Origin: Devosia limi DSM 17137
Lineage (GTDB): Bacteria; Pseudomonadota; Alphaproteobacteria; Rhizobiales; Devosiaceae
Direction: 5' to 3'
Length of the DNA: 64,000 nucleotides
Assembly: GCF_900128975.1 (NCBI RefSeq)
Contig: NZ_FQVC01000003.1
Coordinates: forward strand, 248,001 to 312,000
The notes under the pieces were generated by a model. It did no database searches and was not told the origin of the DNA. It saw only the letters and a program-made list of their open reading frames with translations. A program made the translations under genes and the position numbers. Below are positions 14,278-29,468 of the stretch, piece by piece; the stretch's first letter is position 1; each line of letters opens with the position of its first letter.

Positions 14278-14946
14278 CTAAATGAGGTCTTTTTTGGGGT
14301 TCTCGCCAGATCCCGTTAGGGCACCAATTCTGCGATAGGTTGCGCGGGAGGATAATAGGTGCACGCGCATGGTGGCGTTGGCCCATTCAGCGTCGCGGAG
14401 GACAAAGGCCTCGACCATGTCGCCATGCTGGCGGTTGCTGCGATAAAGCTCCTCGCGTTCCCAATTATTGAACGTTGGGCTGACGAGAGGTTTACGCGCG
14501 ATCGAATTGATCATGTCGCTCAACAGCGTATTGCCGCCTTGCGCCCAGATCGCGCGGTGGAATGCGGCATTCAGTTCGCGATAGGCCCGCCGGTCCGGCT
14601 CTTTGGTCTTGATGGCATGGTCCATGCGCTCGTGGAGGTCCTTCAGGCGCCCAAGGAATGCATCGTCGACCTTACTCATGGCAAGATCCACTGCCACGGG
14701 CTCCAGCGCAGCGCGCGCCGAAAAGATATGGATTACCTCATCGGGGTCAGTTTCGGCAACGGTGGCCCGGCGGTAGGCCTCGCGGCGTATTACGCCCTCC
14801 GATTGCAGGCGGCGCAAAGCTTCGCGCACGGGCGTCCTGCTGACACCTAGCCTCGTCGCCAGTTCCCCCTCGGGCATTGTGTCGCCGCCAATATACGTGC
14901 CGTCGGCAATCAGGCCCCTGATCGTCTCATAAATGTCCTTGCTCAT
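14278..14946 (-). CDS. GntR-family transcriptional regulator (FCD/FadR type)
   Basis: A 222-residue regulator with an N-terminal winged helix containing EGELATRLGVSRTPVREALR (about 25-46) and an all-helical FCD ligand domain (about 75-205) whose Asp/His set (HIF, NAAFHRAIW, NRQHGDMVEAF) usually binds a metal plus a small carboxylate. It is next to and on the same strand as the hydrolase and ABC importer genes, so it probably controls this catabolic island, perhaps through the palindrome near 22180. The effector is unknown but is expected to be an organic acid from the pathway. Confidence 0.9.
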   Translation of the reverse strand: MSKDIYETIRGLIADGTYIGGDTMPEGELATRLGVSRTPVREALRRLQSEGVIRREAYRRATVAETDPDEVIHIFSARAALEPVAVDLAMSKVDDAFLGRLKDLHERMDHAIKTKEPDRRAYRELNAAFHRAIWAQGGNTLLSDMINSIARKPLVSPTFNNWEREELYRSNRQHGDMVEAFVLRDAEWANATMRVHLLSSRATYRRIGALTGSGENPKKDLI

Positions 14947-15024: not shown

Positions 15025-16194
15025 TCAAAAATTTCGGTCGTGCAACCATTGTGACACTATCTTGGCGGCTTCGCCCAGTTGGCTGGGCTGATTGACGAAA
15101 TAATGGTTCGCGCCATCGACGCATCTAAAGGTTTTGTCCTTGGACGCAACTGCGTTGAAGATGGCCGTCGTGTGGGGCTGGGGCACGGCATCGTCGGCGC
15201 CACATTCGATTGCCAGGAAGGGCACCGACACGGCGCCTGCGGTAACAAGACTATTGGCATTGGTATGCTCGGGTGACCATTGGGACAGCCACGACCGTAG
15301 CGTCGAGAGCCGTCCGAGGCCGACTGGCCCGCTATTCACCGTCTCCGGATGTCCGAGATAGGACCAGCCCGACTTGCGGCTATTGGGGTCGATGGAGGGG
15401 TCCAGGAAGCGCAGGTCGGCCATGGTGCGATGGGTAACAAAGACGCGCTCAAGCTCCTTTCCGTTCGCCTCACGCAGCCGATCGAGCGTATCGGCCACTC
15501 GGTTGGTAATGCGCTGCATACGGGCCTTCTGGGCAGCCCGATAGGCGGCGATGAACTCCGGCGCGAAGGGCGCGGCAGCACGCTCATAGCCCGGGCGATA
15601 TATGTTGAGCGCGGGGTCACAGTCGTCTGGGTTGTTTTCGTCATGCACCGACGGGTCGAGCCACTCAGTCAACAGCGTTGCACGCGAGGCATGGGCGGCC
15701 AGACTGAGCACGGCATCGGCCGGAATGAGTTCAGCACCGATCAAATCCACCGGATCGCCGGCGGGCGTCTGAGTGATGCTGGGACGCTCGGCTTGCGACT
15801 GATAGAGCATCGTCAGAGAGCCACCGCCGCTCCAGCCGCACAGCACAACGCGGTCATAGCCCCATTCATGGCGTGCTGCCCGAATATAGGCCCCGAGATC
15901 GAGGACGACATTCTCCATGATCAGGGCGGTGTCGTTGCGTTGATAGCGGCTGCCTGCACAGAGTACATGGTGACCCATTTCGGCCAAGGCGCGTGGCAGT
16001 GGCAGGAGTTGCAGCGTCGATGCCGGATGCATGAAGATCAGCAAGGTCCTTGAAACCACGCCTTCGGGCGCGATCAGAATGCCTTCAAGATTGGTACGTC
16101 CCTGGCTTCCGGAAAATCCATAGGTTTCCGTGAAATTCTGGTTCGCAGAGAAGCTGATATGCTTCCATTCAAAGGTCAGCTTATGCGTGGTCAC
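15025..16194 (-). CDS. Alpha/beta hydrolase family protein
   Basis: A 389-residue cytoplasmic hydrolase. The nucleophile elbow is GWSGGG (Ser near residue 140), an acidic residue follows strand 7 in ECGADDAVP, and the catalytic His is in GANHYF near the C-terminus, giving a full triad. The first strands read LLIFMHPAST. There is no signal peptide. It lies between the GntR regulator and the ABC importer genes, so hydrolysis of an imported ester or amide is a reasonable inference. The substrate cannot be named. Confidence 0.85.
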   Translation of the reverse strand: MTTHKLTFEWKHISFSANQNFTETYGFSGSQGRTNLEGILIAPEGVVSRTLLIFMHPASTLQLLPLPRALAEMGHHVLCAGSRYQRNDTALIMENVVLDLGAYIRAARHEWGYDRVVLCGWSGGGSLTMLYQSQAERPSITQTPAGDPVDLIGAELIPADAVLSLAAHASRATLLTEWLDPSVHDENNPDDCDPALNIYRPGYERAAAPFAPEFIAAYRAAQKARMQRITNRVADTLDRLREANGKELERVFVTHRTMADLRFLDPSIDPNSRKSGWSYLGHPETVNSGPVGLGRLSTLRSWLSQWSPEHTNANSLVTAGAVSVPFLAIECGADDAVPQPHTTAIFNAVASKDKTFRCVDGANHYFVNQPSQLGEAAKIVSQWLHDRNF

Positions 16195-16238: not shown

Positions 16239-17291
16239 TCAGGCAGCGATTTCAGCGCGCGGCGGGGTCAGGCCGGGATAGGCCTCGGCGATGGCACCGT
16301 CGTAAAGGTGACAGCGTACCCGCCGGCCATCGGCGAGGGTCGCTAGTTCGGGAGCGACGCTGGTGCACAGATCGGTCGCAAAAGGGCAGCGCGACGAGAA
16401 CCGGCATCCGGGTGGAATATTCTGCGGGGAGGGAACGTCGCCCTTCAGTTCGATCCGGCTGCGGACTGCGCCCGGCGTCATGTTGGGAATGGCGGCCATC
16501 AGGCGCTGCGTATAGGGATGCAGGGGCTCGGCCAGGATATCTTCGGCCGGGCCTTCTTCGACGATCTGCCCCAGATACATGACGGCGACGTGGTTGCAGA
16601 TATAACCAACGGTCGCGATGTCGTGCGAGATATAGAGGACCGCCAGCCCGAGTTCGCGCGACAACTCGTCAAGCAGTTCCAGAACGCTGGCTTGAATGGA
16701 AACATCGAGCATCGAGACCGGCTCGTCGGCGACGATGAAACGTGGCTCGAGCACCAGGGCGCGGGCGATGGCGACGCGCTGGCGCTGCCCGCCGGACAGG
16801 TCGCTGGGATAGCTATCGAGATGGGTCGAGGCCGGAATGCGCACATGATCCAGCGCGCGGGCAATAAGGGCCCGCCGCTCCAAGGCGGGGCCGATGCCGT
16901 GGATCTTGAGCGGCTCCTCGATGATCTGGCCAATGGTCAGACGCGGATTGAGCGAGCTGTAAGGGTCCTGAAAGATGATCTGAGCTTCGCGCCGATACTG
17001 CTTGAGCGCCCGTCCTTTGAGGTGGGTGACCGGTTCGCTGTGATAGAGCACGTCGCCGCCAGTTGGCTCGTACATCCGGACCAGCGACATGCCGAGCGTG
17101 GATTTTCCGCAGCCGGATTCCCCGACCAGTCCGACGATCTCGCGCTCGCCGATGGTCAGGTCAACGCCATCAAGGGCGCGGATGGCGGGAGGCGTTCGGC
17201 CTGCCAGGGCGCTGACCAGACCAGCGCGCGCCTGAAAATGGGTTTGAAGATTCTCTGCGGTCACGACCGCGGGGGTGGATGCGCGGGTCAT
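16239..17291 (-). CDS. Dipeptide/oligopeptide-type ABC transporter ATPase (DppF-like)
   Basis: A 350-residue ATPase of the Opp/Dpp class: Walker [13 protein letters not shown]-loop [12 protein letters not shown], signature [15 protein letters not shown], Walker [13 protein letters not shown]. The C-terminal oligopeptide extension contains [17 protein letters not shown], where the Cys pattern is typical of DppD/DppF. It is the last gene of the importer operon, overlapping the other ATPase gene by four bases. Despite the family name the cargo need not be a peptide. Confidence 0.92.
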
Positions 17292-18358
17292 ATCGCTGCC
17301 TCCTTGGCGCGCCAGGTCTCAGCCTGCCGGGCAGCCAGTCGAAATTCTGGGGCCCGCTCGGCAAAATGGCAGGCCACGGCGTGGCCATCGGATGATTGGA
17401 TCAGTTCAGGTTGCTCGGCATGGCAAAGCGCGGCTGCAAACGGGCAGCGGGAGGCAAAGCGGCAGCCTCGTGGCGGCATGAGCAAATTTGGCACCGTGCC
17501 CGGAATGGAGATAAGGGGCTGCCTGGACGTACCTCTGACCGGCAGCTTGGGAAAAGCATTTTGCAGCCCCATCGTATAGGGGTGGCGCGGGCGCTGCAGC
17601 ACATCGGCGGTGGCACCGGATTCGACCAGCTTGCCGGCATACATGACCGCAGTGGTTTCACAGGTTTCCGAGACCACGGCTATATCGTGTGTCACCAATA
17701 TCATGGAACGACGCAGATGCTCATGGATGCCGCGGATGCGGGTCATGATCTGATCCTGCATGATCGGGTCCAGCGCCGTGGTCGGCTCGTCGGCGAGCAA
17801 CATTCCGGCATTCAAGCTCAGTGCCATGGCGATGACGGCACGTTGGCGCATACCACCGGAGAACTGGTGCGGGAATTCCCGTAGCCGTGCTGCCGGCAGC
17901 CCCACCACCGCAAACATTTCTGCGGCGCGCGCCCAGGCCAGGCCATAGGGGATCTTCTCATGCGCGAGGATGGACTCAACAATTTGGTCGCCAATGCACA
18001 GAACGGGGTCGAGCGAGTTCATGGCGCTCTGCGTGATCAGCGATATCTGGGTCCAGCGCACCTGTTGCAGGGCCTTGTCCGACAGACCAAGAATGTTTTT
18101 TCCATTGAGCAGGACGTCACCGGTGACCGTCGTGGCTTCCGGCAGCAGGTTCATGATGGCCTTGACCACAGTGCTCTTGCCGCATCCAGATTCGCCCACC
18201 AATCCCAGTGTTGTTCCGGGTTCGACTGTAAAGGAGACATTGTCGATGGCGTTGAACGGGCCACGGAACGTGCCATAGGCGACGCAGAGGTTCTTCACTT
18301 CAAGGCGGGCGGCCGGCTTTTGTGCCAGACGCGCGTTCAGGTCTTGCAAGGCAGTCAT
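17288..18358 (-). CDS. Dipeptide/oligopeptide-type ABC transporter ATPase (DppD-like)
   Basis: A 356-residue partner ATPase: Walker [15 protein letters not shown], signature FSGGMRQRAVIAMAL, Walker B MLLADEPTTALD, and the C-terminal oligopeptide domain with PPRGCRFASRCPFAAALC. In this class two different ATPases pair under two permeases. It starts two bases after the end of the permease gene and overlaps the next ATPase gene (ATGA), so the subunits are translationally coupled. Confidence 0.92.
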   Translation of the reverse strand: MTALQDLNARLAQKPAARLEVKNLCVAYGTFRGPFNAIDNVSFTVEPGTTLGLVGESGCGKSTVVKAIMNLLPEATTVTGDVLLNGKNILGLSDKALQQVRWTQISLITQSAMNSLDPVLCIGDQIVESILAHEKIPYGLAWARAAEMFAVVGLPAARLREFPHQFSGGMRQRAVIAMALSLNAGMLLADEPTTALDPIMQDQIMTRIRGIHEHLRRSMILVTHDIAVVSETCETTAVMYAGKLVESGATADVLQRPRHPYTMGLQNAFPKLPVRGTSRQPLISIPGTVPNLLMPPRGCRFASRCPFAAALCHAEQPELIQSSDGHAVACHFAERAPEFRLAARQAETWRAKEAAI

Positions 18359-18360
18359 AT

Positions 18361-19275
18361 CTAGCGCCTCCGCAGTCTTGGATTGGCCTGCTCTTCATAG
18401 CCACGTCCGATGAGATAGAGCGAGGACACGAGGAAGATCAGCCCGAGCGAGGGGGGCAACACCCACCACCACGCGGTGCGCAGGCTTCCGCTGGAGAAAG
18501 CCGTGTTGAGCATCTGGCCCCAGCTGATGACGGTCGGATCGCCCAGTCCCAGAAAGCTTAGGCTCGCTTCGGTCAGCACTGCGAAAGCGACCGACATGGT
18601 GATCCATAAAAAGACCACGCGAAAAATGTTGGGCAGGATGTGTCGCATGATGATGTGGATATGGGAGGCACCCGCTGCACGGGCCCACTTCACATAGACC
18701 CGCTCGCGCTCGGTGAGCACCGCCGATCGGATGATGCGGGCGCCATTGCGCCAGAACAGCAGCGTAATGACCAGCACGATGTTCTCGATACTCGGCCCGA
18801 GCAGGGCGACAGCAACGATGGAGAAGGGCAAGGTCGGAATAGAGAGAGCGACGTCGGTAATCCGCATTAAAACGTCGTCAATCAAGCCACCGAAATAGCC
18901 GGCCACAACGCCGAACACTGTCGAGATAATTCCGACAGCGAAGGCTGCGACGAGGCCGACGATAAAGGCGACGCGAAAACCGTACAGGAACTGGCTCAGC
19001 ACGTCATTGCCGAAGGCCGTCGTTCCGAATGGATTGGCCGATGATGGCGGGGCGAGACGCAGCAGGCGACCGCTTTCCGTCAACATGGCCTGGAACGGGT
19101 CATAGGGCGCCAACCATGGCGCGAAGATCGCGATGGCAGCGAAGATGGTCAGGATGACCATGCCCGCAACTGCGAAGCTGTCGCCGATCAGCAGGATGAA
19201 AGACTCGCGGGCCGCAGCCAGCATTCCTTTGCCCGCGATGGGAGGCAGATCGGTCTTTGGGGTCGATTGGCTCAT
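18361..19275 (-). CDS. Dipeptide/oligopeptide-type ABC permease (DppC-like)
   Basis: A 304-residue inner-membrane permease. The N-terminus has one span, then the LAPYDPF motif typical of DppC/OppC, five more spans, and the EAA loop VKWARAAGASHIHIIMRHIL. The start at 19275 (MSQSTPKTD) is chosen over a longer frame because it overlaps the stop of the upstream permease gene by four bases and matches family length. It pairs with the DppB-like subunit. Confidence 0.92.
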   Translation of the reverse strand: MSQSTPKTDLPPIAGKGMLAAARESFILLIGDSFAVAGMVILTIFAAIAIFAPWLAPYDPFQAMLTESGRLLRLAPPSSANPFGTTAFGNDVLSQFLYGFRVAFIVGLVAAFAVGIISTVFGVVAGYFGGLIDDVLMRITDVALSIPTLPFSIVAVALLGPSIENIVLVITLLFWRNGARIIRSAVLTERERVYVKWARAAGASHIHIIMRHILPNIFRVVFLWITMSVAFAVLTEASLSFLGLGDPTVISWGQMLNTAFSSGSLRTAWWWVLPPSLGLIFLVSSLYLIGRGYEEQANPRLRRR

Positions 19276-20237
19276 TTGTAGACCACCCGGGGATCGAGTT
19301 TGCCGTAGGTGAGGTCGGCCGCCAGGTTGGCGAGCACGATCATCACGGCCAGCAGGAAGAATGCGGCCTGAGCCAGCGGATAGTCCTGGCGCGTAACGGC
19401 CAGCACCAGTTCCCGTCCGACGCCCGGCCAGGAAAAGACGATTTCGATGACGACGATACCGGCGATGGTTTCTGCGAGGGCAGGAAACAGCCAAGTGATC
19501 AGCGGTAGCAGCGAATTGCGAGCCGCATGCCAGGCGACGCGCGAGGACGGCACGCCCTTGGCCCGCACCAGTTCGATATAGTCCTCAGTGCGGTTTTCCA
19601 CGACGCCACTGCGCATCAGCAGCAGGTTTTCGGGCAGGAAGTAAATGATCACGGCGATCAGCGGCAGCGCGAGATGGTGCAAGAAATCCAGTGTCAGGTA
19701 ACGGGCAAAACCTTGTGTGGGACCGGGGTCGCCCATGCCGAAACCGGGGAACCATCCGAGCGTGCTCGAAAACACCGTCAGCAGGGCGATGCCGATGACG
19801 AAACTGGGCGCGCCGCGAATGATCGTGGCGAGGAAGATGCCACCGCGCTCGATCTTGCCGCCGCGTTTGGACCAGCCCACCAGCATGCCGAGGGCCGCCC
19901 CGGCAAAGGCCCCAAGCAACAGCCCCGGCACCGCGATCCACAGCGTATTGCCAATGAGCGGCCAGAGGACTTCCCAGACCGGCTTGCGGTAGAAAAAGGA
20001 CGAACCGAAATCGCCGCGCAGCAGATTGCCCATGTAGCGCAGATACTGATCCCAGAGTGACCCGCTTAGCCCCCACTGCGCGATAAGGGTCTCACGGGCC
20101 GCGTCGGTCATGCCGCGTTCCATCAGAACGGCCGTCGGGTCGGCTGGCATCACGCGGAACATTACGAACATGATTGTGGTAACGGCCCAGACGACCACTA
20201 CGGCTTGCGCAAGGCGGCGCAGAATATAGGCTCTCAT
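19272..20237 (-). CDS. Dipeptide/oligopeptide-type ABC permease (DppB-like)
   Basis: A 321-residue permease starting MRAYILRRLAQAVVV, the classical DppB/OppB opening with one span, followed by the periplasmic PADPTAVL segment, five further spans and the EAA loop VRAKGVPSSRVAWHAARNSL. The start at 20237 is preferred because the longer frame adds a Cys/Arg-rich non-family segment. It is separated from the binding-protein gene by a hairpin that probably lowers its expression relative to that gene. Confidence 0.92.
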   Translation of the reverse strand: MRAYILRRLAQAVVVVWAVTTIMFVMFRVMPADPTAVLMERGMTDAARETLIAQWGLSGSLWDQYLRYMGNLLRGDFGSSFFYRKPVWEVLWPLIGNTLWIAVPGLLLGAFAGAALGMLVGWSKRGGKIERGGIFLATIIRGAPSFVIGIALLTVFSSTLGWFPGFGMGDPGPTQGFARYLTLDFLHHLALPLIAVIIYFLPENLLLMRSGVVENRTEDYIELVRAKGVPSSRVAWHAARNSLLPLITWLFPALAETIAGIVVIEIVFSWPGVGRELVLAVTRQDYPLAQAAFFLLAVMIVLANLAADLTYGKLDPRVVYK

Positions 20238-20350
20238 CGGGTTTTCTCCGGCAAGGAACGGCCACGGGTGGGTACGAGTACGGCTGGTGGCCATGGCGCG
20301 CGGCCACAGGACTTGGCACTGATGGCAGTCAACGCATCGCGCTCTGCAGC

Positions 20351-20380
20351 AAAACGGCCCGCCGCTTTGGCGGCAGGCCG
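20351..20380 (-). terminator. Attenuating terminator between binding protein and permease genes
   Basis: On the - strand a stem GGCCTGCCGC/GCGGCGGGCC (one G-U pair) with a CAAA-type loop is followed by GTTTTGC. It sits only 10 bases past the binding-protein stop, a common arrangement that makes the binding protein more abundant than the membrane subunits. Confidence 0.7.
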
Positions 20381-20389
20381 CTCCTGTAC

Positions 20390-22015
20390 TTAGTTCGGCG
20401 GATAATGCAGTCGACCCTGAGCATCCCAACCGTAACCGGCGGCTTCGAGCGTGGCGCGAGCTGCGTCGATGTCGAACGGGATGGGGGCGAGGTCAGAGTT
20501 ATGCCACATGCCCAACTGGGTCGGCACCGAGCCTTCGCCAGCCGGCACCGCAAAGCCGAGCCAGCCTTCGATTGCCGCGCGCTGCTTATTGGTGGCAAGC
20601 CGCAGAGCCTCACGGAAGGCCAGATCGGTGAACGGCGCTTTCTCGTTGTTCAGCCAGACCAGAAGCGAGCCATGCGAGGGAATTTCGAGAAAGTCGAGGG
20701 ACGCTTCCTGCACCGCAAGGTCGCTCATTGCTGCCACCGGCAGAACCGTCGTGGCAATGTCAGCCGCACCCGAAAGCATGGCCGAACGGATGGCGTCGGC
20801 CTGGCCAAGCGCCAGGCGGCGCAGACCATCATATTGCGGTGCGTTGAAATGGGCGGTGTTGGTGTCGAGTTCGTGGACCTCGTTCATGCGCCAGGTCTTG
20901 AACTTGAACGGACCGCTACCGATCGCCACGCCGTCGGCGATGACATCACGAGCCGTTACGTCCCCTTCATAGTCGGCCCACAGATGCTCGGGCAGAATGA
21001 AGAGGTAGGTCAAAACCGTGGTGACGAAGGCGGCGTCAGAAGTCTTGAGCTTGACCTCGAAAGTGCGCTCGTCGATCACTTCGGCACTTTCCAAGTTGGC
21101 AATGCGCGAGCTCATGGCCGGGGGTTGTGCCTCGACAACCATGTTGATGGTGAAAGCCGCATCTGCGGCAGTGACCGGCTTGCCGTCGTGGAAGGTCATG
21201 CCGTCGCGCAGCACGATGCGTACTGTCTGGGGATCCGTGAATTCCCAGGACTCCGCGGCCCATGGCACGGTCTCACCCTGTGCGTTGTTCTTGGCAAAGG
21301 TGTCGTAGACGAACCGCAGCCAACCCACGGCACCTTCTTCGGCGAGCGGATTATAGGTCGTTACGTCTTCCAGGTAAGCCCAGTCCAGAATACGGTCGTC
21401 GGTCTTGGGCACAGCCGATAGCCAAGGATCTACCAGGCCTTCATGGGCGGCGACCGGCGCCGGGCTGGTTACATTCTCCCATTTGTCGCTGTTCCACAGG
21501 ATGCCGTAAACCGTGTTGGTCGCAGGCCACCAGGGCGCCTGGTCGTAGAAGCGCTGCTGGGCGGCGTAGACTGTTTCAAGGCGCTGAGCCTGATCGACCT
21601 GGCTGCGCTGAGCGGTTGCCAGCGCGGTAAATTCCTCGTCGCACCATTTGGCGCCATTGCGGCGCGCGCCACAGGCGCCAAGGTCATAGAGCCAATAGGT
21701 GGGATCAACGCGATCCGGATCGGCACCGACGGTGAATACAGCCATGTCCTCAAGGCCGCCACCAACCATGATGTTGGAGATGAAGGCACTAAACTGTACT
21801 GGCTGGAGCTGGAAGCTCAGGCCGAGCTTGGCCCATTCTTCGCTCATGACACGGGCAGACTGTTCGTACATCGGCCCCATGTCCGACGCGTAATAGGCAA
21901 TCTGGAGTTCGGGAACCGGCTCACCCAGCGCCTGCGCATGAGCGGTTCCCGTCATAAGCGCGATACTCATCGGCAGCAGCGCCATGGCTCGCCACGATCG
22001 AATAGAATGCTTCAT
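20390..22015 (-). CDS. Family 5 substrate-binding protein with circularly permuted domain order
   Basis: Periplasmic binding protein of the Opp/Dpp importer, 541 residues, signal peptide about 1-28 (ends AHA). The order of family blocks is unusual. Residues about 36-205 (EEWAKLGL, DPDRVDP, KWCDEEF, RLETVYAAQQRFYDQAP) match what is normally the C-terminal part of this family, while residues about 208-541 begin with the usual N-terminal part (YNPL, LRDGMTFHDGKPVTAADAAF) and end at FDIDAARATLEAAGYGWD, exactly where the usual C-terminal part would start. So the chain is permuted at the AGY-x-G junction. Start 22015 follows a GAGGAGG ribosome site. Cargo unknown; the catabolic neighbours suggest an aromatic-derived or acylated compound. 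Confidence 0.9.
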   Translation of the reverse strand: MKHSIRSWRAMALLPMSIALMTGTAHAQALGEPVPELQIAYYASDMGPMYEQSARVMSEEWAKLGLSFQLQPVQFSAFISNIMVGGGLEDMAVFTVGADPDRVDPTYWLYDLGACGARRNGAKWCDEEFTALATAQRSQVDQAQRLETVYAAQQRFYDQAPWWPATNTVYGILWNSDKWENVTSPAPVAAHEGLVDPWLSAVPKTDDRILDWAYLEDVTTYNPLAEEGAVGWLRFVYDTFAKNNAQGETVPWAAESWEFTDPQTVRIVLRDGMTFHDGKPVTAADAAFTINMVVEAQPPAMSSRIANLESAEVIDERTFEVKLKTSDAAFVTTVLTYLFILPEHLWADYEGDVTARDVIADGVAIGSGPFKFKTWRMNEVHELDTNTAHFNAPQYDGLRRLALGQADAIRSAMLSGAADIATTVLPVAAMSDLAVQEASLDFLEIPSHGSLLVWLNNEKAPFTDLAFREALRLATNKQRAAIEGWLGFAVPAGEGSVPTQLGMWHNSDLAPIPFDIDAARATLEAAGYGWDAQGRLHYPPN

Positions 22016-22113
22016 CGTTGTTTCCTCCTCGAAATTGTCCGGCATGTGCTGCCGGCGCCCCGACTGCCTGTCGCTCCCGCTGGGATTGCAGGAGCGCCTC
22101 CTCTGGCATGTCT

Positions 22114-22223: not shown

Positions 22224-23495
22224 ATGCGACACAGTTGGGTTCTGGGGGCGAATGAGCCTGAGTGTGATTTCCCGTTGGCAAACTTGCCTTATGGAGTGTT
22301 TTCCACGCCGGGCAGCGCGCCGCGCTGTGGCGTTGCCATCGGGGATAGCGTGGTCGACCTCGCAGCGCTGAGTGATGCCGGATTGCTGGGCGCAGTGGCC
22401 GCCGATTGTGGTTTTGAGCAAGACACAATCAACGCTTTCATGGCGCAGGGCAGGACGGTTTGGGATGCTATACGCGCCGACTTGACCGAGCTTCTGGCCA
22501 AAGATGGTCGCGCGGCCTTGCGGGACAATGCGCGCTTGCGGGAAACAGCGCTGTTGCCCCTCGGTTCGGTCAGTCTGCACCTGCCGTTCCGTGTGGGTGG
22601 CTACACCGATTTCTTCGCCGGCCGACAGCACGCCGTCAATTCCGGGACAATTTTGCGGGGGGCGAACAACGCCCTTACCCCAAACTGGCCGCATATGCCG
22701 ATCGCCTACAACGGACGCGCCTCCTCGGTGGTGGTCTCAGGTACGCCGGTACGCCGCCCGCTTGGCCAATTCCTAGTTGAAGGCGAGGAGGGGCCGCATT
22801 TTGGTCCCAGTCGCCGACTGGATATTGAAGTGGAGTTTGGGGTCGTCGTCGGCAAGCCGACCGCCCACGGTGACATTCTTAGCGTCGCTGAAGCGCATGA
22901 TCACATTTTTGGCTTCGTCCTGCTCAACGACTGGTCCGCGCGCGATATTCAGCGTTGGGAAGGCCAGCCACTCGGCCCCTTCCAGTCAAAGGCGAGCGCG
23001 ACCACGATCAGTCCCTGGGTCGTGCCGCAGGCGGCGCTCGCCGCTTTCCGTGTGCAATCGCCTGAACGCGACGTTCCGCTGCTGCCCTATCTGCACGAAC
23101 AAGCCGATTATTGCTTCGATATCAATATCGAAGCATGGCTGGGGACTGATTCGGTGGAGCCGGCGCGGCTGGTGTCCACCAACACCAGGCACCTGTACTA
23201 CTCCGCGCCGCAACTGCTCGCCCACCACTCCATTAGCGGTTGCCGTATGCAGGTGGGCGACTTGCTGGGCTCCGGCACAATTTCCGGCCCCGAACGTCCC
23301 CAATTTGGCTGCATGATGGAACAGAGTTGGGGCGGGCGCGACCCGATCCAACTGGATAACGGCCTGGAGCGGATATTTCTCGAAGATGGCGACAGCGTGC
23401 GGATGACCGGTTGGGCGCAGGGCGAAGGCTACCGCATAGGTTTTGGCGTGTGCGACGGACAAATTCTCCCTGCCCATGCCTGGCCAAAGCGGTAG
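22224..23495 (+). CDS. fahA: Fumarylacetoacetase
   Basis: Hydrolyses fumarylacetoacetate to fumarate and acetoacetate, the last step of tyrosine/homogentisate breakdown. The 423-residue protein has the N-terminal SH3-like domain and the FAH catalytic domain. The eukaryote-type active-site stretch is well kept: YTDFFAGRQHAVN with the catalytic His (near residue 133), then PIAYNGRASSVVVSG, DIEVEFGVVVG with metal-binding acids, LNDWSARDIQRWE and SGTISGPE. It heads a rightward operon of four genes. No homogentisate or gentisate dioxygenase is in the window, so the ring-opening step must be encoded elsewhere, or the substrate is a related 2,4-diketo acid. Confidence 0.92.
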   Translation: MRHSWVLGANEPECDFPLANLPYGVFSTPGSAPRCGVAIGDSVVDLAALSDAGLLGAVAADCGFEQDTINAFMAQGRTVWDAIRADLTELLAKDGRAALRDNARLRETALLPLGSVSLHLPFRVGGYTDFFAGRQHAVNSGTILRGANNALTPNWPHMPIAYNGRASSVVVSGTPVRRPLGQFLVEGEEGPHFGPSRRLDIEVEFGVVVGKPTAHGDILSVAEAHDHIFGFVLLNDWSARDIQRWEGQPLGPFQSKASATTISPWVVPQAALAAFRVQSPERDVPLLPYLHEQADYCFDINIEAWLGTDSVEPARLVSTNTRHLYYSAPQLLAHHSISGCRMQVGDLLGSGTISGPERPQFGCMMEQSWGGRDPIQLDNGLERIFLEDGDSVRMTGWAQGEGYRIGFGVCDGQILPAHAWPKR

Positions 23496-23503
23496 CGGCG
23501 TTC

Positions 23504-24355
23504 ATGCAAATCTGCCGTTTCAACGAGAATCGTCTGGGAGTGGTGCGCGACAACCGCGTCTATGACGTGTCGGGGGTCCTCGATAGGCTGCCGGTTTTCC
23601 GCTATCCGCTGCCCGAGCATGACCCACTGATCGCTGCCTTGCCGGAGCTGCGGCCAATCATTGAATCCATGTTGGCGGGGGCGCGTTCTGTCGACCTTGC
23701 CAGCGTGCGCCTGCTGCCGCCAGTGGCCTCACCGCGCAAGATCGTCGCGGCCCCGGTCAACTACCGCAAACATATTGAAGAGGCCCGCAGCGACGCGGCC
23801 ATCCATCATCACCAAGCCATCCTCGACATCGATAGAGCGGGGCTGTTTTTGAAAGCGACAAGCTCGCTGATCGGCCCATCCGACCCACTGATGATCCGTC
23901 ATGCCGACCGCCGCAACGATCACGAAATCGAACTGGTTGCGGTAATCGGCAAGACCGTCGACCGCGTGACGCCGGAGAAGGCACTTGACTGCGTGGCTGG
24001 CTATTGTGTCGGCCTCGACATGACGGTGCGCGGCACCGAAGAGCGGTCTCTGCGGAAATCCGTTGATACATTCAGCGTTATCGGCCCCTGGATGGTGACT
24101 GCTGACGACATAGCAGACCCCGGCCAACTCGTACTGGAGCTGCGAGTCAATGGTGATCTACGCCAGCAAGCGTCAACGGCAGACCTGCTGCGAGACCTGC
24201 CATCGTTAATTGCCCTGGCATCCTCCTTCTACACGCTCAGACCCGGCGATTTGCTCTTCACCGGCACGCCCGAAGGGGTTGGTGCAGTGAAATCCGACGA
24301 CAGCATAGCCGCCTGGATTGAAGGCATCGGCACCATGCAGGTCGCGGTCCACTAG
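23504..24355 (+). CDS. FAH-superfamily hydrolase
   Basis: A 283-residue fumarylacetoacetate-hydrolase-fold protein. After an N-terminal domain beginning MQICRFNENRLGVVRDNRV come the active-site blocks APVNYRKHIEE, the metal-binding HEIELVAVIGK, GYCVGLDMTVRG and RPGDLLFTGTPEGVG. The family includes acylpyruvases, oxaloacetate decarboxylases and 2,4-diketo-acid hydrolases. The start at 23504 lies 8 bases after the fahA stop and gives the standard length; a longer upstream frame runs through fahA. The exact substrate is not predictable. Confidence 0.88.
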   Translation: MQICRFNENRLGVVRDNRVYDVSGVLDRLPVFRYPLPEHDPLIAALPELRPIIESMLAGARSVDLASVRLLPPVASPRKIVAAPVNYRKHIEEARSDAAIHHHQAILDIDRAGLFLKATSSLIGPSDPLMIRHADRRNDHEIELVAVIGKTVDRVTPEKALDCVAGYCVGLDMTVRGTEERSLRKSVDTFSVIGPWMVTADDIADPGQLVLELRVNGDLRQQASTADLLRDLPSLIALASSFYTLRPGDLLFTGTPEGVGAVKSDDSIAAWIEGIGTMQVAVH

Positions 24356-24380
24356 ACCAATATTCATCAAGGATTTCATC

Positions 24381-25076
24381 ATGAACTATGTCGTTGAACC
24401 CATGCCCGTACAAAGCCTGCCCGTGGCCGGAGAGGACGCCCGTTTCCCGTTGCGGCGCATCTTTTGCGTGGGGCGGAACTATGCCGACCATGTGGTCGAA
24501 ATGGGCTTCGTGCCGGAGCGTGAGGCGCCGTTCTTCTTCACCAAGCCGATCGACGCCATCGTTGAGGACGGCGCAACGGTGCCGTATCCCCAACTGACTG
24601 AGAATTTTCACCACGAGGCCGAGTTGGTCATCGCCATCGGCAAGACAGGGAGCAATATTGCAGTCGAGGACGCACTCGACCATGTCTTCGGCTATGCCGT
24701 GGGGAATGATCTGACGCGTCGCGATCTGCAATTTGCCCTGCGCGATCGGAGCCACCCTTGGGATTGGAGCAAGGCGTTCGATAAATCGGCTGTTTGCGGC
24801 GCTGTGCATCGTGCTGTGGCTGGCCAACCTCCAAAAGACGCGCGCATCCAGTTGCTCGTCAATGGCGAAAAACGGCAGGATAGCCCGCTAGCGGCGATGG
24901 TCTGGTCGGTTTCTGAAATCATTGCGGCGCTGTCGACCTCGGTGCAGATTCGCCCCGGCGATTTGGTCTACACCGGCACGCCATCTGGCGTTGGGCCGCT
25001 CCTCCCCGGCGATGTCTGCACTGTCACGGTGACGGGCCTGGGCGCGATTACCACGACCATCGGGCAGCGCGAATGA
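24381..25076 (+). CDS. FAH-superfamily hydrolase (fumarylpyruvate/acylpyruvate type)
   Basis: A 231-residue single-domain FAH-fold protein with FCVGRNYADHVVEMG (catalytic His), the metal-binding HHEAELVIAIGK, FGYAVGNDLTRRDLQ and IRPGDLVYTGTPSGVGPL. The short form resembles fumarylpyruvate hydrolase (NagK-like) of gentisate degradation. The start at 24381 has a GGATTTC upstream stretch and gives the family N-terminus. It overlaps the GST gene by four bases; with a maleylpyruvate isomerase next to it, this pair would convert a ring-cleavage product to pyruvate and fumarate. That pathway assignment is inference. Confidence 0.88.
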   Translation: MNYVVEPMPVQSLPVAGEDARFPLRRIFCVGRNYADHVVEMGFVPEREAPFFFTKPIDAIVEDGATVPYPQLTENFHHEAELVIAIGKTGSNIAVEDALDHVFGYAVGNDLTRRDLQFALRDRSHPWDWSKAFDKSAVCGAVHRAVAGQPPKDARIQLLVNGEKRQDSPLAAMVWSVSEIIAALSTSVQIRPGDLVYTGTPSGVGPLLPGDVCTVTVTGLGAITTTIGQRE

Positions 25077-25720
25077 GTGAGCTGACCCTGCATAACTACT
25101 TTCGCTCATCGACATCGATCCGCGTGCGGATAGCCTTGGCGCTCAAGGGGCTCGATTATGACTATGTGGCCTGGAACCTACGCGAGGGTGCGCAGCAAAC
25201 GCCCGAATATCTGGCGATCAATCCGCATGGGGTAGTGCCCACGCTGGTCGTGGATGGTCAGGCGCTGACACAGTCGATCCCGATCATAGAGTACCTGGAG
25301 CAAACGGTTCCCGATCCGGCTCTCTTGCCGACTAGCCCGCTAGACCGCGCGCGTGTCCGTGGTCTTGCCGCGATGATCGCTTGCGATATTCATCCTCTCA
25401 ACAACCTGAAAGTGCTGACTTATCTGGAGGTGGAGTTGGGCGTTGATACAGAGGCGCGTGCGCACTGGTTCCGGCACTGGGTCCAAATGACATTCGGGCC
25501 GCTGGAAGCGATGTTGGCCAATGACCCGCGAACCGGCCAATTCTGCCACGGCGATAAACCGGGCTTAGCCGATATCTGTCTGTATGCCCAAGTCATGAAC
25601 AATCGCCGCTTTAAGATAGGACTTGAGGACTATCCCACCATAGCGAGAATATACGACGCCTGTAGCACGCTAGCGGCCTTCGTTCAGGGGGCTCCCGAGG
25701 CGCAGCCCGACGCATCATAG
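25073..25720 (+). CDS. maiA: Maleylacetoacetate/maleylpyruvate isomerase (zeta-class GST)
   Basis: A 215-residue zeta-class glutathione transferase. The active-site motif is YFRSSTSIRVRIALALKG (residues ~9-26) with the SSxS(C/I)RVRIAL signature, NPHGVVPTLVVDG supplies the cis-Pro glutathione site, and QSIPIIEYLE binds the gamma-glutamyl group. It isomerises the cis (maleyl) ring-cleavage product to the trans (fumaryl) form, which the FAH enzymes just upstream hydrolyse. Last gene of the operon, overlapping its neighbour by four bases. Confidence 0.92.
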   Translation: MSELTLHNYFRSSTSIRVRIALALKGLDYDYVAWNLREGAQQTPEYLAINPHGVVPTLVVDGQALTQSIPIIEYLEQTVPDPALLPTSPLDRARVRGLAAMIACDIHPLNNLKVLTYLEVELGVDTEARAHWFRHWVQMTFGPLEAMLANDPRTGQFCHGDKPGLADICLYAQVMNNRRFKIGLEDYPTIARIYDACSTLAAFVQGAPEAQPDAS

Positions 25721-26293: not shown

Positions 26294-27286
26294 TTAGTTC
26301 TCCTTTGATGATTGGAATGATGTGATCGCGTCCGGAGCCGTGCCGGGGAGCCGGTCGATGAACAGGGCCTCGATGCCCTGCCGGCTGGCAAGTTCGGCGC
26401 CGGTTCCGGGGCCAAGCACCAGCAGGGCAGTTGCCCAGGCATCGCCCCCCATACAGGTGGCAGCCATGACGGTGACGGCGGCCGGGCCATCGGCGAGCGG
26501 TGCCCCATGACGCGGGTCCATGGTATGGCCGTAGCGGATGCCGTCGCGCTCGACGAAGTGCCGGTAGTCGCCGGACGTGGCGACGGCGCCCTCGCTCAGT
26601 TCGATCACGCCTTCCACCGCGCGGTGACCAGTTTGCGGCTTCTCAACGGCCACCCGCCAGGGCGAGCCTTCAGGCTTGCCGCCAGCTGCACGCAATTCGC
26701 CATCGATCGAGACGAGAAAATGCTCGACACCATGGGCCATCAGCACGCTGGCCAGTTCGTCGACGCCAAATCCCTTGGCAATGCCGGAAAGGTCGAGCGT
26801 CACCGCAGCAAGCTTGCGGACCCGCTGCTGGGCGTGGTCGAGTTCGAGGCAGAGATGGGCCGGGCGTCGAGCAACGGTAGTTTTGGCATCCGGCCACTTC
26901 TGGTCGCTGCTGGCAGCCTGGCTGCCAAATCCCCAGGCAGCCACGAGGTCGCCCACGCCGATATCGAAGGCACCCTCCGACAATCGGCCGATCTCCAGCG
27001 CTGCCGCCAGCACCGTGAAGAGTTCCTCGGGCATCTTGCACCAGATTCCTGTCGGCGCGCGGTTGAGCCGCATCAGTGCCGAATCCGGTTTCCACGTCGA
27101 CATCTGGGCGTCGACCGCATCGACCGCCGCCTGCAGATCGCGGTTCAGTCCGGATCGGACCGCGTCGCCACGGGCATAGAATACCGCCGAGTAGCGCGTC
27201 CCCATGGTGGCGCCGCTGAACACCTGCCGCTCCAGCGGCAGGATCATCAAGTCCGGCTGGCGCCCTTCGCTGCGTTCAATAGGCAT
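26294..27286 (-). CDS. apbE: FAD:protein FMN transferase ApbE
   Basis: ApbE transfers FMN from FAD to Ser/Thr of exported or membrane proteins. Visible blocks are MGTRYSAVFYA, MSTWKPDSALMRLN, the nucleotide-binding VTLDLSGIAKGFGVDEL, and the catalytic-region GHTMDPRHGAP with the Asp/His set. The 330-residue version beginning MPIERSEG overlaps the upstream reductase gene by 11 bases; longer starts are possible. I see no clear signal peptide on this start, so whether it acts in the periplasm is open. Its likely client is the DUF2271 protein at 29480 in the same operon. Confidence 0.9.
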   Translation of the reverse strand: MPIERSEGRQPDLMILPLERQVFSGATMGTRYSAVFYARGDAVRSGLNRDLQAAVDAVDAQMSTWKPDSALMRLNRAPTGIWCKMPEELFTVLAAALEIGRLSEGAFDIGVGDLVAAWGFGSQAASSDQKWPDAKTTVARRPAHLCLELDHAQQRVRKLAAVTLDLSGIAKGFGVDELASVLMAHGVEHFLVSIDGELRAAGGKPEGSPWRVAVEKPQTGHRAVEGVIELSEGAVATSGDYRHFVERDGIRYGHTMDPRHGAPLADGPAAVTVMAATCMGGDAWATALLVLGPGTGAELASRQGIEALFIDRLPGTAPDAITSFQSSKEN

Positions 27287-29468
27287 CTTCAAGGTACAGT
27301 CCCTTCTGCTTGAGGCCATCTACGCTGAGGCCCAGCGGTGCCAGGCAGTCCTGGATCGCCCCACGCACGCCATTGGCCATGTCACGCCCGCCGCAGACCA
27401 TGATCTGCGCGCCCTGCTGGACCAGGCGGCGCACGGTGTCCGCCTCCGCGCTCACCAGGTCCTGCACATAGCCGCCGCCCATGACGCGGGAGAACCGGGC
27501 GTTGAGCGAGGTCAGGCGGCCTGCGTCCAGCGCGGTTTGGAGGTCGTCGCGATAGAGGAAATCCGACGCCGGATCGCGGCCACCAAAGAACAGATGCACG
27601 GGACGGCGATGCCGGTTGTGCCGGACAAAGCCCGCGAGCGGCGCCACCCCGGCGCCCGCGCCGATCAGGATCAGCGGACGGCGCCCTTGCTTGGGCCGGA
27701 AGTCCGGATTGGGGCGGATGAAGCTGTCGATCGCCTCGCCCGGCACCAGCGAATGCAGGAATTCCGAGCACAGCCCGTCCGTCTGCTTGCGCACGCAGAT
27801 TTCCAGGACGCCGTCACGCGAGGCCGAAGCCAGCGAATAGTAGCGCGGCGCGGCGCCGCCGGGCGGCACGATACCGACCAGGTCACCTACCTCGAAATGC
27901 GGCAACCGGGGGCCGAACCAGCCCCCACGGGGCTGTGGCGCGGCAAATTTGAGCACGACGACCGGCGCCTGGACTTCCATGCCGTAAAGGGTGCGCTCGA
28001 CCAGCAAGAGTTTTCTGGTGGCGGGCCGCGCCGCAACGTGGTTCAGCACCAGAGGCAGGCCGAGCCGCGCGCCGAGGCCCTTGCCCCAGGCCGCAAAGTG
28101 CCCGGCCGATTGCCGGTCGACGCTGCCCAGAGGCAGCAGGCGGGACAGGCCCTTGGCCGCCAGCGCGGCGTCGACCCGGGCGGCAAAGCCGCAGAACTGG
28201 GCAAAGCTCTGGTCGCCAAAGCCGAGCACGGCGAAGCCGGGTGTCGAGGCAAAGCGCTCGAGCCGGGCGAGGAACTGGCGGGCGGAGGCCGGCGCCGCGC
28301 CATCACCATAGCTGGCGGCGAGCACCAGCAGCCGGGATGCGTTCGGATAGCTGCGCCGCAACTCGTTCATGGCGGCGACATGAACGCGCTGGCCCTGCAG
28401 CCGCAGGGCGTCCTGCAGCGTGGCGGCAAAGCCCCAGCTGCTGCCGCCTTCGCTGCCCACCAGAATGATCGTGTCGGCATCGCGCCAGGAAACATTGCCG
28501 GAGAAACGCGGCGTGTTGCGGCGACGCATCCACCAGATGATCGTACCGGTCACGGCCAGCAGCGGCACGCTGAGCGCGCCCAGCCCCACCAGCAGCGCCA
28601 CCAAGGGCGCGCCCTGCCCGGTATGCAGCAGGTAGATGAATTCATAGGCCCGCTGCCAGGCATCACTTGGCGTGAAGGAGAGCATGGCGCCGGTGCCCTG
28701 GTCGACATAGCCCTGTCCGGCCTGGGTGGTGACGGTGAAGACGTCCGTTGCATCGCCCATCGCCGGGAAGGTCAGTTCGCGCAGATCAGTCAATGGAATG
28801 GCGGCGAGCGCCTCAAGCGAGGCAATGGGCGCTACGCTATCGCCAGCGCTGGCCGGTGGAAATGCGAACATCGCGCCAGCATTTTCCGGCAGCAGCGCAA
28901 AATTGACCGCCGACATATAGGCGCCGGTCACCGAGGTCAGCAGCAGCACGGCAACGCCGATACGCGCCAGGTCGGTATGCAGCCGCTGCGAACCGGTGCC
29001 GCGCGATGCAGCAAGCAGCTTGCGCCAGCCGCCCACCTTGCCCACCAGCAGCAATGTGCCGCTGATGGCGAGCGCCAGGATGATCAGCGCCGCGACCCCG
29101 GCTGCGCCGTGCCCGACATTGCCCAGCATGAAGGAGCGATGCAGGTCGGTGATGAAGCTGAAAAAGGCCGACGGCGCATAGGCGCCGGCTGCCGCGCCGG
29201 TCTGGGGATCGACAATCACGGCGCTCCGCACCCCGTTCTCGGCCGTATAGGCGACCAACTGACCCGATGCTGAGCGCACCAGGCGCTCCACACCAGGCAG
29301 ATCTGCGGCCACGCGGTCAGCCAGCGCCGCCACGTTAACGCCGCTGTCCGCAGCCATCGTCGTGGCCGCATCGGCGAGCGGCTGCAGCGACAGCACGAAG
29401 CCGGTCGTGGCCATGAAGATGACCAGCAGACCGCCAAACAGGCCGCCAAGGGAGTGAAGTCTGCGCAT
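27276..29468 (-). CDS. PepSY-domain membrane flavodoxin reductase
   Basis: A 730-residue transmembrane reductase. The N-terminal third has PepSY-type membrane spans (about 1-380) with candidate haem-ligand His residues in DLHRSFMLG, RLHTDLARIG and LLHTGQG. A flavodoxin-like FMN domain follows (about 390-520; the LVGSEGGSSWGFA and ASYGDGAAP loops). The C-terminal FNR part has the FAD motif RYYSLAS, the nucleotide site GAGAGVAPLAG and MVCGGRDMANGV. It should pass electrons from cytosolic NAD(P)H through FAD and FMN to membrane haems and on to the periplasm. It lies between apbE and the DUF2271 gene, 11 bases after the latter. Confidence 0.9.
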   Translation of the reverse strand: MRRLHSLGGLFGGLLVIFMATTGFVLSLQPLADAATTMAADSGVNVAALADRVAADLPGVERLVRSASGQLVAYTAENGVRSAVIVDPQTGAAAGAYAPSAFFSFITDLHRSFMLGNVGHGAAGVAALIILALAISGTLLLVGKVGGWRKLLAASRGTGSQRLHTDLARIGVAVLLLTSVTGAYMSAVNFALLPENAGAMFAFPPASAGDSVAPIASLEALAAIPLTDLRELTFPAMGDATDVFTVTTQAGQGYVDQGTGAMLSFTPSDAWQRAYEFIYLLHTGQGAPLVALLVGLGALSVPLLAVTGTIIWWMRRRNTPRFSGNVSWRDADTIILVGSEGGSSWGFAATLQDALRLQGQRVHVAAMNELRRSYPNASRLLVLAASYGDGAAPASARQFLARLERFASTPGFAVLGFGDQSFAQFCGFAARVDAALAAKGLSRLLPLGSVDRQSAGHFAAWGKGLGARLGLPLVLNHVAARPATRKLLLVERTLYGMEVQAPVVVLKFAAPQPRGGWFGPRLPHFEVGDLVGIVPPGGAAPRYYSLASASRDGVLEICVRKQTDGLCSEFLHSLVPGEAIDSFIRPNPDFRPKQGRRPLILIGAGAGVAPLAGFVRHNRHRRPVHLFFGGRDPASDFLYRDDLQTALDAGRLTSLNARFSRVMGGGYVQDLVSAEADTVRRLVQQGAQIMVCGGRDMANGVRGAIQDCLAPLGLSVDGLKQKGLYLEDAY

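Follow-up and report, generated by a model that had tools for sequence, protein, structure and literature searches.

Natural circular permutation of a substrate-binding protein (SBP) has been described for the Treponema glucose-binding protein TpMglB-2 (Tp0684), for which a Type Ic or Cluster Bc designation was proposed, and the same kind of permutation occurs in other bacteria (PMC4990184). This cluster B sugar binder is the sole naturally permuted SBP of an ATP-binding cassette (ABC) importer found in print. The two termini of a cluster C protein are neighbours within domain I, part of lobe 1 (PMC10924461), and an oligosaccharide-binding subcluster, C-IV, has been named (PMC8449061). In a literature search whose reach mostly excluded subscription papers and preprints, no permuted protein of cluster C was found described. 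One paper mentions both SBP_bac_5 and circular permutation, but only in a table on another subject and in its reference list (PMC2588589); a second candidate paper is also unrelated (PMC2912341). The gene considered here lies at positions 20390–22015 of a 64-kb stretch of Devosia limi DSM 17137 DNA (contig NZ_FQVC01000003.1, positions 248,001 to 312,000, hereafter the window) and encodes a family 5 (SBP_bac_5) SBP of 541 residues. It can be stated with high confidence that this is a permuted cluster C SBP, likely the receptor of a Dpp-type importer, that would have kept its fold and most likely shares one origin with its permuted homologs.

Reversed order of the two family 5 blocks

The SBP is encoded on the minus strand in a single open reading frame from an ATG at 22015 to a stop codon at 20390, and an alternative start at 22045 would lengthen it by 10 residues. 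The block that normally ends a family 5 SBP (C-block) follows the signal-peptide-like N-terminus directly, and the block corresponding to the N-terminal two thirds of such a protein (N-block) comes second, after a short linker (Table 1). Pfam reported a single family, SBP_bac_5, at 166.5 bits (cut-off 32.4) in two stretches, the best of which placed residues 249–534 on positions 2–284 of the 368-position profile. With the NCBIfam models the reversal was evident, as the best stretch of the DppA profile aligned residues 50–170 to profile positions 385–509 and the NikA profile aligned residues 215–529 to positions 13–328. Alignment to E. coli DppA (1dpp) likewise paired residues 247–528 with 44–340 and residues 48–163 with 359–473. 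A first-block profile built from 30 permuted proteins matched residues 356–480 of E. coli DppA (E 4.5e-18) and 384–509 of Yersinia DppA (E 1.1e-19). The normal N-to-C order of the SBP_bac_5 profile is absent from the 541-residue protein, which was classified as a permuted variant of SBP_bac_5 and cluster C because its blocks are reversed. The chain ends at AGYGWDAQGRLHYPPN, where canonical proteins turn and enter the C-block; at the equivalent position a canonical SBP of the same genome, L016, reads AGYADTNGDGFLETPSGAPLSLEI. Chance is excluded by the E-values of the profiles and alignments together with the permuted order of all 117 testable homologs. The block order is a real circular permutation, and it is conserved.

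A sequence-only reading of the window had proposed this permutation from a single frame, a single junction and a set of family motifs, all of which proved correct, and had put the junction at residues 205–210, close to the position found at about 196–205. Its view that the order is no artefact agrees with a search of all six reading frames across the window, in which each block is present once, and with the order seen in homologs. It had suggested looking for two SBP_bac_5-family matches in reversed order, as the DppA and NikA models gave, and had held that a single collinear match across the chain would speak against it; the matches were instead split and reversed. It had also considered that the order might be the normal one in a recognised subfamily. 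The order is indeed normal within a large clade, but none of the Pfam and NCBIfam family models run on the protein, and no paper found, recognises such a clade.

Fold and position of the chain ends

The AlphaFold model of the permuted SBP is confident, with a predicted local distance difference test (pLDDT) score of 92.4. The VIA-align rows shown for the fold search with the whole model cover mainly residues 202–541, and residues 204–541 gave high-Z structural matches to cluster C SBPs. The C-block was therefore folded on its own, and only weak fold matches were obtained; sequence profiles gave better proof of the identity of this block than the fold search. In a junction-profile search of solved structures none with the permuted order was found, the best stretch lying on one side of the junction in every one of the 60 matches listed of 70; among these, 7kz8 showed a second stretch besides its best one.

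By homology, the cut would be placed in lobe 2, at the turn just ahead of the opening strand of the C-block, and the old termini would be connected in lobe 1 through a linker of about 11 residues. With the old termini adjoining in lobe 1 and the cut placed in lobe 2, the chain would still be expected to cross between the lobes twice, an expectation that also draws on two long strands (residues 162–175 and 440–455) of the AlphaFold model. The bilobed fold and both hinge crossings would then be retained, with only the ends shifting to lobe 2. The altered hinge suggested by the sequence-only reading is unsupported on this basis. Its proposal that different ends meet the membrane is consistent with the homology, by which the mature N-terminus shifts and the signal peptide or lipid anchor would enter lobe 2 rather than lobe 1. 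Among 106 full-length permuted homologs, 16 N-termini were Tat-like (twin-arginine translocation), 16 lipobox-like, 5 both and 69 neither, according to loose patterns whose counts include false positives (P0018 looks like one).

Conservation and distribution of the permuted order

Both blocks are held by 117 of the 120 homologs listed (of 549), every one of the 117 in permuted order, and the remaining three are fragments containing the N-block only. Full-length criteria removed 14 of the 120; in the 106 homologs left, a linker of 11–18 residues (median 11) separates the two block profiles and the chain ends 3–15 residues past the N-block. A scan of one-genome-per-species contigs with junction profile A2, a single peptide pattern, returned 37 loci, all permuted, and 36 of these have Dpp-type permease or ATPase genes near by. 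A search for homologs sharing the junction beside similar operons had been suggested by the sequence-only reading. By title, the loci belong to Alphaproteobacteria, actinobacterial groups (Propionibacteriales, Acidimicrobiia), Bacillota groups such as Evansella and Halanaerobiaceae, Anaerolineae (Chloroflexota), Nitrospinota, Desulfacinum, one Deltaproteobacteria bin and one Verrucomicrobia bin. The Verrucomicrobia bin (L023) and Paracoccus (L025) have nearly identical receptor and permease sets, and mis-binning is suspected because the two group so closely in the permease tree. Of 72,556 plasmid records, 11 matched at E 1e-40 or better, each match taking in 80% or more of the permuted query at a single site, and three of the 11 are haloarchaeal. 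All four plasmid loci opened (L059–L062) are permuted, with importer genes behind the permuted gene in L059 and L062, in Halalkalicoccus and Haladaptatus.

The D. limi genome holds 21 family 5 genes, one permuted and 20 canonical; five of the canonical paralogs carry a weak C-block signal (E 0.012 to 0.14) and are placed as canonical by Pfam. In the Devosiaceae, at least five of 136 genomes (G000, G111, G114, G115, G123) matched at least 160 of 174 junction-profile positions, and at least eight of 241 genomes of the class matched the profile at E 1e-17, both counts being lower bounds since up to 26 and up to 14 candidates per genome were scored, respectively. Among the matches listed in the family scan, D. 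limi alone (at least one genome) represents its genus, and close homologs are present in two further Devosia strains, A449 (97% identical) and A369 (68%). The permuted SBP is rare and patchily distributed in its family and class. Near homologs occur in Aminobacter, Paracoccus, Acuticoccus and other Rhodobacteraceae, and the nearest in the tree, from which rows above 62% identity had been thinned out, are two actinobacterial bins. This distribution would fit transfer between lineages, and the bins may be contaminated. The permuted protein is maintained by selection: in three of five pairs, dN (nonsynonymous divergence) was 0.22–0.26 against a dS (synonymous divergence) of 1.1–2.2, while the remaining two showed saturated dS.

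Origin of the permuted clade

In a quick first tree of 38 permuted and 26 canonical rows, for which homologs shorter than 480 residues and P0001 were dropped before the permuted set was reduced from 149 rows to 38, a single split separated the two orders (99). A more careful whole-protein tree was built by taking out 14 rows (11 permuted and 3 canonical, two of them with very long branches) and adding 6 of C-IV type, giving 27 permuted proteins, restored to normal order, and 29 canonical ones. Here too one branch, long at 1.86, splits permuted from canonical proteins, with a bootstrap of 100, a Shimodaira-Hasegawa-like approximate likelihood ratio test (SH-aLRT) value of 99 and presence in 100% of 200 bootstrap trees. 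The clade lies beside, not inside, the seven C-IV-type rows in the whole-protein and block trees. L016 (L016:1270-2934) is a chitooligosaccharide-type SBP of normal order that matches VhCBP structures at E ~1e-165, and by the SBP and permease trees it and its permease are the nearest sampled canonical relatives of the permuted importers. In the permease tree, DppB partners were taken for 38 permuted receptors, counting that of the window, and for 17 canonical ones, 13 of them from the window's own genome; the permuted partners fall on one branch (95); four of 41 permuted loci (L027, L028, L036, L041) have no DppB inside the distance and strand limits. Scored against the DppB of the window, the 37 other permuted partners reached 225–575, whereas the canonical partners reached 95–175. 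As the DppB partners form one branch and the scores follow a like pattern, receptor and permease likely travelled together. A single origin of the permuted clade is thus likely, with the caveats that canonical sampling is thin (20 of the 26 canonical rows of the quick tree come from one genome) and that the L016 lineage is itself a long branch. The founding event was most likely a single one, in one SBP gene close to the C-IV oligosaccharide binders, with tandem duplication followed by fusion and trimming as a possible route, and the permuted receptors would then have been inherited and transferred along with their own permeases.

A hybrid, in which the first block derives from another SBP gene than the second and the fusion mimics a permutation, is an origin also raised for TpMglB-2 (PMC4990184). 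The high divergence of the C-block and the low support for the permuted clade in the C-block tree (68, against 92 in the N-block tree) weigh against rotation of one gene. However, the clade adjoins L016 and its kin in both single-block trees (97 for the N-block, 89 for the C-block), and the branch of partner permeases adjoins the permease of the same lineage (96). Because each half alone indicates the same sampled sister, C-IV, one rotation of one gene is the likelier course and a hybrid is quite improbable. The turn at which the chain is cut may be an easy one to open, and the clade covers distant phyla, as might be expected if several independent permutations had occurred there instead of one ancient event. 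Such repeated events are nevertheless very unlikely, given the single branch in each SBP tree, the near-constant linker length and the residues that set permuted rows apart from canonical ones: W252 (38/38 vs 0/26), R102 and A253 (each 36/38 vs 0/26), Q136 (36/38 vs 1/26) and H389 (33/38 vs 0/26).

The clade-specific residues may hint at an altered surface or pocket in a protein that has left transport to act as a sensor or scaffold. Little probability is given to that role in view of the permease and ATPase genes found at nearly all of the scanned loci and of the history that DppB has in common with the receptor. That an ordinary SBP gene was scrambled by misassembly or a frame error was rejected as next to impossible: the frame is open throughout, a six-frame search of the window shows each block a single time, and separately assembled genomes of many organisms have the permuted order too.

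Ligand pocket and genomic neighbourhood

In DppA, Asp408 and Arg355 form a pair that holds the peptide ends. The solved DppA double mutant R383D+D436R, which is among the structure matches listed, presumably concerns the same two residues in precursor numbering. Asp101 of the permuted SBP is aligned to Asp408, and 32 of the 38 permuted rows have D or E there. The Arg355 position falls at the edge of the alignment, and the 38 rows have no conserved Arg close to it, at residues 44–45. From this the ligand is inferred not to be a free dipeptide, and an altered pocket, which the sequence-only reading had raised as a question, is plausible in light of the clade-diagnostic Arg102. Assignment as a plain dipeptide or nickel receptor was rejected because the NCBIfam equivalog cut-offs were missed (DppA 48.6 vs 1005 bits, NikA 81.6 vs 393).

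Genes of DppB, DppC, DppD and DppF type follow downstream, then those of a hydrolase and a GntR regulator, and the permuted SBP is likely the receptor of the importer encoded there. For the hydrolase frame (389 residues), the best Pfam match is limited to residues 319–368, which leaves its first 300 residues without an assignment. Fumarylacetoacetase and maleylacetoacetate isomerase, both encoded divergently, catalyse the last steps of homogentisate-type breakdown. L022, L024 and L027 likewise have a fumarylacetoacetase homolog in the neighbourhood of their permuted gene, and in L025 that gene is followed by homologs of the hydrolase, of the regulator and of one fumarylacetoacetate-hydrolase-family protein. 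Enzymes acting on amide or peptide bonds occur near the permuted gene in three of the four opened plasmid loci (creatininase and M20 in L059, M20 and M28 in L060, D-aminoacylase and dipeptide epimerase in L062) and were absent from L061. The three operons belong to haloarchaea and Roseomonas, and their neighbours hint at amide-type ligands. Taken together, the neighbours weakly suggest that the ligand is a small compound of amide, ester or aromatic type and not a plain dipeptide.

Elsewhere, canonical family 5 SBP and permease genes were observed within a few kb of the permuted gene in L026, L034, L051, L054 and L055. Further along the window (26294–29468), an ApbE flavin transferase is encoded beside a PepSY-TM/flavodoxin/NAD-binding protein, possibly a flavin-linked membrane reductase.

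Table 1. Features of the permuted SBP gene and its neighbours, in window coordinates
Feature	Position	Strand	Basis or remark
Circularly permuted family 5 SBP, 541 residues	20390..22015	-	Open reading frame, profile and homolog evidence
Shine-Dalgarno-like GAGGAGG ahead of ATG	22024..22030	-	
Signal-peptide-like N-terminus, residues 1–27, AHA at end	21935..22015	-	Judged by eye
C-block in first place, residues 34–195	21431..21916	-	Block profile matches DppA 356–480
Junction linker DPWLSAVPKT, residues 196–205	21401..21430	-	Old C-terminus to old N-terminus
N-block in second place, residues 206–541	20393..21400	-	Residues 247–528 match DppA 44–340
Arg102 codon, diagnostic of permuted clade	21710..21712	-	36/38 permuted, 0/26 canonical rows
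DppB-type permease frame	19272..20429	-	Likely start M at 20237
DppC-type permease frame	18361..19494	-	Likely start M at 19275
DppD/OppD-type ATPase	17288..18358	-	
DppF/OppF-type ATPase	16239..17291	-	
Alpha/beta hydrolase-like protein after transporter genes	15025..16194	-	Homolog also in L025
GntR/FCD transcriptional regulator	14278..14946	-	
Divergent fumarylacetoacetase	22224..23495	+	NCBIfam 525 bits vs cut-off 375.3
Two fumarylacetoacetate-hydrolase-family proteins and maleylacetoacetate isomerase	23411..25720	+	Isomerase 266.6 bits vs cut-off 171.05

Significance and comparison with known systems

If the permuted receptors still fold and work, as is likely, the clade would represent one ancient rearrangement retained in a working machine, and the large peptide-type cluster C would now include a clade with its ends on the other lobe. 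It spans several bacterial phyla and haloarchaea, hidden under the label 'substrate-binding protein'. A bolder possibility, held tentatively and with more doubt than belief, is that one ancient permutation founded a separate, unrecognised importer class in bacteria and archaea, with lobe-2-anchored receptors, co-adapted permeases and docking or gating unlike that of Dpp/Opp. With 20 canonical receptors and a permuted one in the same genome, natural pairs are at hand for relating end position, anchoring and hinge geometry to permease docking. The Pfam result, one family in two stretches, is also a warning that single-profile annotation may overlook rearranged proteins.

With cluster C and SBP_bac_5 (DppA, OppA, AppA, NikA) the permuted SBP shares the family profile, the fold match of residues 204–541 and the operon type, but it differs in its rotated blocks and falls below the cut-off of all 11 NCBIfam models listed. 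The C-IV oligosaccharide binders (VhCBP and the Thermotoga manno- and cello-oligosaccharide SBPs) appear as the nearest sampled lineage in the whole-protein, N-block, C-block and permease trees, and their member L016 has the normal order where the permuted SBP is rotated. TpMglB-2, like it, is an SBP of an ABC importer that is circularly permuted in nature. Its fold, however, is Cluster B (type I), the cut is another one and a fourth lobe crossing is present. The Cluster B fold was not found here, the matched family being SBP_bac_5 of cluster C, for which two crossings are expected.
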